DNA of 64,000 bases from Winogradskyella schleiferi (lineage in GTDB: Bacteria; Bacteroidota; Bacteroidia; Flavobacteriales; Flavobacteriaceae). The stretch lies in NCBI RefSeq assembly GCF_013394655.1, contig NZ_CP053351.1, forward strand, positions 3,006,501 through 3,070,500, read 5' to 3'. Shown piece after piece: positions 26,454 to 29,334 of this stretch (position 1 is its first letter; each line of letters begins with the position of its first letter). The position numbers and the translations under genes were made by a program. The notes below the pieces were generated by a model that ran no database searches, was not told the DNA's origin, and saw only the letters and a list, made by a program, of their open reading frames with translations.

Positions 26454-27839
26454 TTAAACCATTGATTGTTCTTGTAGCACTTTCCAAGTAAAATTCAGAT
26501 ACAAATCACTTCTAGCCTCTAGTGGGTTTCTATTGTCATCTCTAACTATTACCATCTTTTTGTCCAGGATTTCTAGATTCCGCTCTGTATGCCTCACAAG
26601 TTTATTATGTTGTGTATGCTCAAAATACTTATGCTCTTTATGGACTATATTAGAATAGCTATACCTATAAAACTTCGTGCCAATTGCTTTTTGCAGGAAA
26701 TAAAAAAAGACATCATCTTGGCCATAGGCACCAGAAAAATCTTCGTCCACTCCTTTGGTTCGCAAAAACACCTCTTTATTCATAAAAAACACGTTGAAAT
26801 GAGGATCAACTTTTTTCATACCAGCATAGGTTTCAAATTTGAAGATTGAGTTTCTAGGAGGATAAAAATAAAGTAAACTCTCCAATAGATTTTCAGGAAA
26901 AAAGATGTCCAAATCCGTAACGAGAATATTTTCGGATTTGGCATATTGCACGCCTAAATTTCTTGCTCCAGGTTGATTCCACTTAATATTTTCGTTAATT
27001 CTGACCAAGGTATAATTTAAATTCACATCATCTGCAATAGTGATTGGCGCTTTAGAGCCATCATCTACAAAAACGAAATGAATTTGTTTTAATATAGTGT
27101 TATCATAACTACTGTAAATATCTATCAATTCCTTAATGGGATCATAAGTATTATCCTCTAAATAGAACTGCACGATATAAGTTATTCTAATATGGGCATG
27201 TTCTGAGTATTCCTTAAAATTGGATATGTAAGATTTATGCTTGATAGGATCAGTGTATAAATCAATATTCCAAGAGGCTATGTTGGCATTATGATATCCA
27301 AATTGCGAATCCCAAATGCCACTTTCGATACTAAATTGATGCGCTACTTCTGAAGTGGCAAATTTCATACCCTTATGTTCTAAATAGGTTTTATAGGTTC
27401 GGCAGATATGGTAATCCTCGGGATGGAAGATTTGAATTTGTGAATCTTCAGCAATAATTTTTAAAAGTTTTTTTGAGCGTAGGCTAAAACCACCGTTTCC
27501 CATTCCCCATTTTGTCGGAGCGCCTATATAATCAAAATCCAAAAAATCAGAATGCCATTGTCCAGGGTTTAAGACAAAACCGTCATACTGAATGACTAAA
27601 ACATAATCGGTATCAACATAAGCATTGAGTTGCCTAATCATAAATTCGCTGTAAGCTTCAATACTTGCAATTTTCGGTATTTTTACAATGCGGTTATCAT
27701 CAGATTCTAAATGGGTTAATAATTTAACGTCTTTAAAATTGAGATACTTTTGGGATACATCTGCAGCATAAATCAATCGGTCAATATCAATGCAGTCAAC
27801 ACCTAAGAGCGTTACATTATCAAGATTTAGAGTCTCCAT
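26454..27839 (-). CDS. DUF5672 + GT-A glycosyltransferase fusion
   Basis: The 461-residue cytoplasmic protein has two parts. Residues 1-200 match the DUF5672 pattern ([33 protein letters not shown]). Residues 215-455 are a GT2-like GT-A domain with VFVDDGS (about 256-262), [13 protein letters not shown] (290-302) and the metal-binding LVTDLDIFF (DLD at 309-311), and a [12 protein letters not shown] acceptor-site region. Both halves look like sugar-transfer domains. The gene starts 1 bp after the end of the GT9 gene, so the two are one operon. Acceptor unknown. Confidence 0.85.
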
Positions 27840-27840
27840 C

Positions 27841-29010
27841 CTATTTGTTCAATGACCTTAGATTAGGAATTACCTCAAATAAATCCAGTTCAAGCATGGC
27901 TTGAAAAATGTCTCTAAACTGCTTAGGTATTTTGTCTATAATAATTTCAGTTTTAGATAAACTGTTCTTCATAAATTCAAAGCTTTCTTTATCATTAATA
28001 TCAATTAAATACTCATTTTCCTTACTCTGAAAAATGATGCTATTATCTTCGAATGAAGCCGTAAATTCTGGATTAATAAGGTAAGTGCTTGTTTGCTCTA
28101 CGCCCATTCTTTTGAAAAGTCGCAGTAATAGAAACAACATCTTTTTTGGAGACACTTTATTTAAACAAACCCGATCTTCACAAGCGAGAATCACGTTATA
28201 ATTACATCTTTGCCCGCAATTACCTCGCTTTCCCCAAATCAATTCAACTGTTTCGGAAAATGCGCCCCAAGAACCAGGTCCTGTTGGCCCATAAATCGTC
28301 AAAATCGGAATATTAAACGCAGCTGCCAAATGTGTGATTCCAGCATCATTACCAATGTGAAAAAATGCGCCTGAAATTTCTTTGGCAACCTCATCGATAC
28401 CTCCTGTTACCAAATCATAATTTAAATTTGCATTAGAAAAATAGGCTTCAGGATTTGGGTCATTCGGTCCTATTATAATCTTGGCTTTTAGTTGTGGAAA
28501 ATAATCATGAATTAACTCCATTAGTTTAGCATAATAATCAATCGGCCAAGCCTTAAGTAAAAATCCAGCTCCTGGATGCACGGTGTAATACAGTTCGCCA
28601 GAAGTCGTTTTAGGAAAGTAAGGATACTTTTCTTTGGTTTTTATTAGCTCTGGAAACTTGGCTACAATACCATCTTTGTAGTGTTCAATAGAATGTTGCT
28701 TAACCTTTTTATGCGTGTGATAGGTTATTTGAGGTTTTTTCTCTAAGTCATTATGAAATTTAGGATAATTACCAAGTTCTATAACTTCATCAAAATCAGA
28801 TTCATCAATTTCATTTTCATCTAATACTGAAATTCCTGGCAAATTGGCCTTAAATAACTTTACGAATCGAGGTTGGGTCGCATATGTAACATTGCTAAAT
28901 TTTTGTTTCAGCATGTAAAGTGAAGGGATTGTAAAAAAAATATCTCCCATACCTCCATAACTTTTATAAACGAGAATGGAAGTCTGCTGCGTTAAGGTAT
29001 TCTGGGACAT
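27841..29010 (-). CDS. GT9-family (heptosyltransferase-like) glycosyltransferase
   Basis: The 389-residue protein has the GT-B layout: an N-terminal half with GGMGDIFFTIPSLYML, a linker motif VHPGAGFLLKAWP (144-156) and the nucleotide-sugar-binding half with FHIGNDAGITHLAAAF (217-232) and YGPTGPGSWGAF. A Cys-rich stretch (CGQRC, CEDRVCLNK) follows, as in ADP-heptose transferases. The C-terminal 100 residues are an extra charged extension. It is 1 bp from the DUF5672 fusion and 89 bp downstream of the DDGYY peptide gene, on the same strand. Confidence 0.9.
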   Translation of the reverse strand: MSQNTLTQQTSILVYKSYGGMGDIFFTIPSLYMLKQKFSNVTYATQPRFVKLFKANLPGISVLDENEIDESDFDEVIELGNYPKFHNDLEKKPQITYHTHKKVKQHSIEHYKDGIVAKFPELIKTKEKYPYFPKTTSGELYYTVHPGAGFLLKAWPIDYYAKLMELIHDYFPQLKAKIIIGPNDPNPEAYFSNANLNYDLVTGGIDEVAKEISGAFFHIGNDAGITHLAAAFNIPILTIYGPTGPGSWGAFSETVELIWGKRGNCGQRCNYNVILACEDRVCLNKVSPKKMLFLLLRLFKRMGVEQTSTYLINPEFTASFEDNSIIFQSKENEYLIDINDKESFEFMKNSLSKTEIIIDKIPKQFRDIFQAMLELDLFEVIPNLRSLNK

Positions 29011-29099
29011 AAATTGTATAAATATAAAAACTTCCTTTAGCGTAATTTAGCACATAAGGAAGTTTACTGAAATTATGTTATTAACTTAAATAAAACGTT

Positions 29100-29303
29100 T
29101 TAATAACCGTCGTCATAGTAACCGTCATCGTAATAGCCGTCGTCATAGTAACCATCGTCATAATAACCATCGTCATAGTAGCCATCATCAAACATTCCAT
29201 CGTCGCTATCATCGGAAGTACTACAGGATACTCCTACAATACTAGCTATAGAAGTTATGAGTAGCGTTTGTCCTGTTTTTTTAATAAAGTCTCTTCTTTT
29301 CAT
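29100..29303 (-). CDS. Tat-signal lipopeptide with DDGYY repeats
   Basis: The 67-residue product has a twin-arginine motif (KRRDFIKK, 2-9), a hydrophobic stretch and a lipobox GVSC (Cys27), so it should be exported folded or with cofactor and then lipidated. After STSDDSDDGMF come five DDGYY units and a sixth DDGY cut by the stop codon. The units differ by silent changes (GAC/GAT, GGC/GGT, TAC/TAT) but not in protein sequence, which argues for selection on the peptide. Tyr-rich acidic repeats could bind metal or be modified. It precedes the glycosyltransferases. No family recognised. Confidence 0.75.
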   Translation of the reverse strand: MKRRDFIKKTGQTLLITSIASIVGVSCSTSDDSDDGMFDDGYYDDGYYDDGYYDDGYYDDGYYDDGY

Positions 29304-29326: not shown

Positions 29327-29334
29327 CAAAAATA
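29327..29334 (-). promoter_or_regulatory. candidate -7 box for the DDGYY lipopeptide gene
   Basis: TATTTTTG on the minus strand fits TAnnTTTG, 24 nt before the ATG, so the peptide can start its own transcript, possibly reading on into the two glycosyltransferase genes. Confidence 0.4.

Follow-up and report, generated by a model that had tools for sequence, protein, structure and literature searches.

A 67-residue peptide with a twin-arginine (Tat) motif, a lipobox, and DDGYY repeats lies directly ahead of two glycosyltransferase genes in Winogradskyella schleiferi, raising the question of what so short a Tat lipoprotein has to do with enzymes that transfer sugars. We examined the 64,000-nucleotide stretch of DNA that contains the locus (the window; contig NZ_CP053351.1) together with related genomes. 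The reading we favor, with a probability of about 0.6, is that the locus is a minimal RiPP-like glycosylation cassette. The original prediction was right in its coordinates, strand, and gene products, from the repeat peptide to the GT9 gene and the DUF5672 plus glycosyltransferase fusion. The features, in window positions and with the basis of each, are:

29100..29303, minus strand: repeat lipopeptide, putative precursor and acceptor, 67 aa (sequence and relatives)
29226..29303, minus strand: Tat signal region, residues 1-26, proposed RRE-binding leader (residue conservation in 31 peptides)
29190..29225, minus strand: lipobox Cys27 and the acidic stretch after it (likeness to the Bacteroidetes lipoprotein export signal, from the available part of PMC5080379)
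29103..29189, minus strand: DDGYY array, five units plus DDGY, proposed modified core (repeat counts, selection)
27841..29010, minus strand: GT9 glycosyltransferase with C-terminal RRE-like domain, 389 aa (Pfam, alignment, fold prediction)
27844..28101, minus strand: RRE-like domain, GT9 residues 304-389 (predicted fold)
26454..27839, minus strand: DUF5672 plus GT2 partner glycosyltransferase, 461 aa (Pfam)
29327..29334, minus strand: promoter-like TAnnTTTG, 31 bp before the peptide ATG (sequence pattern)

The gap between peptide and GT9 was 89 bp, and that between GT9 and the DUF5672-GT2 reading frame was 1 bp. Upstream of the cassette in the window were RluD and a PASTA protein; downstream was YaaA. 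The peptide had also been credited with a candidate promoter of its own, a claim that held for part of the set: TAnnTTTG recurred at -31/-32 in three relatives (L071, L043, and L044), but across 31 peptides it was found upstream of 7, against 3.3 expected. A promoter is thus plausible for the window's clade, and the signal is not a general one.

Among 397 genomes of the window's family, 27 carried both peptide and GT9, one carried GT9 only, none carried the peptide only, and 369 carried neither (Fisher p = 5e-41, kinship ignored), so the pairing is not due to chance. The GT9 count of 28 genomes is based on best matches of E <= 3e-84 in each. The peptide model matched 30 genomes at E 0.001, of which three weak matches (E 7.6e-4 to 5.1e-5) were dropped: G083, a lipoprotein whose Tyr repeats are of another kind and which lacks a Tat motif; G076, a Tat protein that has no array; and G299, a lipoprotein likewise lacking a Tat motif. 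The sole GT9 without a peptide (genome G231, locus L093) runs off the end of its contig. Two patterns had been named in advance as speaking against a link, repeat peptides found mostly without the glycosyltransferases and glycosyltransferases conserved in place without the peptide; neither was seen, which supports the link, with 0 of 27 peptide genomes lacking GT9 and 1 of 28 GT9 genomes, the one at the contig end, lacking the peptide. The peptide was located upstream on the same strand in the window and in 29 of 30 fetched loci, the miss being L093. In the window and the 28 loci that have a full GT9, the glycosyltransferase reading frame (the frame, not the start codon) opened at distances ranging from 19 bp ahead of the nearest peptide stop to 174 bp past it; in the exception, L098, the peptide adjoins only the C-terminal part of a GT9. 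Peptide and GT9 are therefore adjacent, and are present or absent together. Among 149 relatives, the three genomes with the peptide were the same three with a strong GT9 match, and ten further genomes matched GT9 at E 4e-5 to 7e-4, which we took as ordinary GT9. At the level of the order, the peptide was found only in the window's own genome among 196; at the level of the phylum, the glycosyltransferase alignment gave 18 other matches among 345 genomes, all partial and at E 9e-21 or weaker. Proteins from Rasiella rasia and Psychroserpens mesophilus were among the peptide matches, and the named relatives of the GT9 pointed to the Flavobacteriaceae.

Flanking proteins, up to eight per locus, were clustered, and gene names were assigned by eye. 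The groups comprised one with rluD and yaaA (the window and 7 other loci), a group of 7 loci in which a membrane-peptidase-like gene was common and most also had CBS, Rpe-like, and YqeY-like proteins, a looser nitroreductase-like group (10 loci), a pair (2 loci), and four others. Some overlapped: one gene is common to the pair and the looser group, L096 and L097 have one in common, and in L072 window-type genes lie no more than 16 kb away. Because of these overlaps, the eight groups were counted as at least five independent neighbourhood kinds. The eight neighbourhood labels required 8 changes on a GT9 tree with 30 rows, in which 12 of the 27 inner branches were open. Within the window's genus, RluD was present in 67 of 68 genomes, and 30 loci were fetched (the window's own and 29 congeners). 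The rluD-yaaA site was empty in 29 of 29 congeners, the distance from RluD to the start of YaaA being 38-820 bp and the interval containing no match to GT9 or DUF5672-GT2. No peptide and no strong GT9 were found in the other genomes of the genus, from which the two glycosyltransferase genes and the peptide are missing together, and for P0003 the matches in other relatives were not strong (best E 1e-5). The variety of neighbourhoods and the empty site led us to reject shared synteny as the explanation for the linkage. In the rluD-yaaA gaps of L151 and L152, partly shared non-coding sequence was noted by eye, including a GCTTTCGCAG-like motif close to where yaaA starts.

The window peptide starts MKRRDFIKK...SC; MKRRDFIKKTGQTLLITSIASIVGVSC is followed by STSDDSDDGMF, the five DDGYY units, and the final DDGY. 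About 272-277 repeat units were counted in the 31 peptides. Positions 2-5 of the unit were D, G, Y, and Y with nearly no exceptions, and position 1 was variable (D 194, G 49, N 14, E 7). Between adjacent units, pN/pS was 0.008 at D, 0.03 at G, 0.008 and 0.007 at the two Y, and 0.18 at position 1, values somewhat lowered in pN because the repeat register demanded 2 of 4 matches per unit. Synonymous differences between units were close to or exceeded site counts, so the arrays are old and have been maintained by selection; purifying selection on the D-G-Y-Y positions rules out a chance repeat. Ser and Thr were absent from the array in 28 of 31 peptides, which would leave Tyr as the sole hydroxyl acceptor there, with Asp esters also possible. 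Such conserved repeats might instead form a metal-binding or adhesive surface polymer that accompanies GT9 only by hitchhiking or because both belong to one regulon; repeats rich in Asp and Tyr could indeed bind cations or stick, and array length varies widely (3-18 units). We consider this very unlikely, since the pair stays together in at least five neighbourhood kinds and comes and goes as a unit. A different Tyr-rich repeat (YLVDGYLEDGYW...) was seen in a lipoprotein without a Tat motif at L126 (genome G083), with no GT9-like motif within that 3-kb locus.

Both marks of a Tat lipoprotein, the RR-x-F-[IL] motif and the lipobox Cys, were found in 31 of 31 peptides. Two acidic residues came soon after the Cys in 29 of 31, by a permissive pattern and as a pattern only. 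The stretch is like the lipoprotein export signals SDDDD and SDDFE given in the available part of PMC5080379, and suggests a surface location for the lipopeptide. Conservation in the signal region went further than these two marks: like R3, R4, and F6, G11 was invariant in 31 of 31, position 12 was Q or K in all 31, L15 was kept in 30, S21 in 29, and S18 and I22 in 28 each. Fixed residues beyond the Tat motif and lipobox would be expected of a docking site, and not of a signal that is merely hydrophobic.

The enzyme beside the peptide matched Pfam Glyco_transf_9 (PF01075) at E 2.1e-17 (63.7 bits against a gathering threshold of 22), as did 30 of 30 aligned GT9 members at E <= 0.001. Its C-lobe matches the nearest solved structures and aligns with WaaC, keeping the GD, K-W-P, and D-G-x-x-H motifs; in the N-lobe only about 32 residues aligned, at 4 bits. 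Pfam family and C-lobe motifs are thus shared with the LPS heptosyltransferases WaaC and WaaF, from which the cassette GT9 differs in its extra C-terminal domain, its peptide neighbour, and its poorly aligned N-lobe. Four cysteines after the C-lobe (C265, C269, C277, and C282) were invariant in 30 of 30 aligned proteins, and are possibly a metal site like the iron finger of TibC. GT9 enzymes are known for the use of ADP-heptose. None of the 28 carriers matched the HldE nucleotidyltransferase model TIGR02199 (controls: 11 of 14 matched, 3 of 14 over cut-off), and none exceeded the cut-off of 209 of the GmhA model TIGR00441, to which 14 of 28 had weak matches of 20-24 bits (controls: 9 of 14 genomes matched, 2 of 14 over cut-off); both are strict models that a diverged heptose pathway would escape. 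With no pathway match over cut-off in 28 carriers, ADP-heptose was rejected as the likely donor. The kept motifs and the unmatched heptose models together make an active GT9 with another donor likely.

The last 86 residues of the GT9 were predicted to have the PqqD/RRE fold, beta-strands followed by helices, and the enzyme is thus predicted to end in a RiPP recognition element (RRE), the domain in which a leader is bound between alpha3 and beta3. The idea of an RRE, which forms no part of the original prediction, had been raised ahead of the structure model. The top fold match was the RRE of PbtF, with a best Z of 8.2, close to what common folds reach, for a model built on 3 sequences (pLDDT 79). 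By sequence, no PqqD/RRE match to the domain was found in Pfam (5 pieces), NCBIfam (28 members), or a PDB profile search. According to the available part of the RRE-Finder report (PMC7470986), RREs of other classes are mostly unrepresented in the PqqD Pfam model, and RRE-glycosyltransferase fusions are mentioned there as absent from known classes. A case of separation was found in genome G355 (L098:6849-7332), where a 59-aa peptide, a separate RRE-like ORF of 79 aa, and a GT2 occur without a catalytic GT9; the same genome has a full GT4-GT9 locus elsewhere (L086). The separate ORF has one database relative, from Hanstruepera ponticola, was found in one genome among the five of its genus, and may be what is left of a GT9 that was deleted.

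The domain might also be a structural winged-helix or dimerisation module, the glycosyltransferases reading the repeats directly as TibC does with its autotransporter. Among 50 fold rows, 22 were not RiPP-type (18 of them ribosomal-oxygenase entries), and the four invariant cysteines recall the Cys4 iron finger described in the available part of PMC4358343; yet the other 28 rows were RiPP-type or related enzymes, with PbtF at their head, L098 keeps the domain with peptide and GT2 though the catalytic part of GT9 is gone, and the signal region has its invariant G11 and near-invariant L15, S18, S21, and I22. A purely structural role is, in our judgment, improbable.

The partner in the window matched DUF5672 (E 1.3e-17) and Glycos_transf_2 (E 1.3e-7) in Pfam, and a sequence comparison with solved structures gave nothing convincing for it (one row, E 0.89). 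A link of the peptide with both glycosyltransferases had been proposed; GT9 was constant, and DUF5672-GT2 was one of several partners. It was a separate gene in the window, L071, L072, L043, and L044. Most other loci encoded a protein of about 690 aa with a GT4-like N-terminal half and a GT9 C-terminal half, the GT4-like half having a Pfam Glycos_transf_1 match in 5 of 30 and being assigned by alignment in the remaining ones. P0062 had Glyco_transf_25 in place of the GT4-like half; the partial N-terminus of L093 was GT25-like by eye, with no Pfam match there. In L096 and L097, the fusion (shortened in L096) was accompanied by a convergent GT2 of about 248 aa. GT9 is thus the constant part, and the partner transferases are exchangeable. 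The highest 19-residue hydropathy in the two window glycosyltransferases was 1.25 and 1.11, indicating no membrane-type segment; the peptide's own weak signal reached 1.27. Enzymes of this kind could act on a carrier, and GT9 and GT2 enzymes usually build on lipid carriers, as they would if they made a separate surface glycan (an LPS or capsule side chain) that an unglycosylated peptide only displayed or anchored. We find this unlikely: no carrier, flippase, or polymerase gene was recognised in 19 flanking sequences read by eye, the RRE-like domain points to a peptide substrate, and what is conserved in the mature peptide is the DGYY array. The original prediction had stated that no polysaccharide genes flank the pair; our check of that statement covered eight window proteins.

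For the glycosylation cassette, we infer the order of events, Tyr acceptor, sugar, and surface location as follows. In the cytoplasm, the RRE would grip the peptide's conserved signal region, which would serve as the leader; a signal peptide in the role of a RiPP leader would be unusual. GT9 and its partner (DUF5672-GT2 here, GT4-like or GT25-like elsewhere) would add sugars along the xDGYY repeats, most likely to tyrosine and from a donor other than ADP-heptose. Tat would then export the modified chain, the lipobox Cys would be lipidated, and the acidic stretch after it would direct the product, now a glycolipopeptide, to the cell surface. That these cassettes form a new RiPP-like class, in which the export signal is the leader and an RRE-GT9 with exchangeable partners makes a Tat-delivered, lipid-anchored, Tyr-glycosylated DGYY glycopolymer, is a tentative proposal to which we give somewhat less than even odds.

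RRE-dependent RiPP systems (PqqD, lasso peptide B1, cyanobactin heterocyclases) likewise have a short precursor gene adjoining an enzyme with a fused RRE-like domain or a separate RRE-like ORF of <100 aa (one locus here), and a conserved leader-like N-terminus with a repetitive core. Unlike them, the cassette has a Tat lipoprotein signal as its leader and a product predicted to remain anchored on the cell, and we saw neither a protease nor an exporter gene in it. The nearest working analogue is TibC, which we take to be a GT9 enzyme. In the available part of its description, TibC hyperglycosylates its autotransporter and has a Cys4 iron finger (PMC4358343). TibC/Aah and the cassette would share a GT9-like enzyme that hyperglycosylates a repetitive surface protein, and a Cys4 motif; the TibC/Aah systems differ in having Ser acceptors, an ADP-heptose donor, and an autotransporter substrate, and the window GT9 scored 13.1 bits on the BAHT autotransporter heptosyltransferase model TIGR04414, below its cut-off of 200. 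S-layer proteins with sugars O-linked to Tyr are described, in the available part of PMC2943079, from Gram-positive bacteria with transfer of a finished glycan proposed. Surface proteins with Tyr O-linked sugars, the latter proposed here, would be common to both. To our knowledge, such S-layers have no such repeats, no RRE, and no Tat lipopeptide. We recognised no account of this system in the open-access literature on DDGYY, DUF5672, Tyr glycosylation, and Tat glycoproteins. If the proposal is true, it unites RiPP leader recognition, cytosolic O-glycosylation, and Tat export, so far separate fields; modification before export would explain the use of Tat by a short peptide; and Tyr O-glycosylation in Gram-negative bacteria would gain a genetic handle, in a compact cassette of two or three genes that combines interchangeable sugar-adding modules with a simple repeated acceptor and could be rebuilt in a laboratory host.

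Nine long peptides run on past the array into a C-terminal domain of about 105 aa, which had no Pfam match at E 1 in the five of nine tested. The array in these peptides looks as if it were a stalk for the domain, and under the proposed mechanism the long forms would be a glycosylated stalk carrying it. At L080:5033-6060, two DGYY peptides occur in tandem, a short one of 95 aa and one of 236 aa that has a C-terminal domain.
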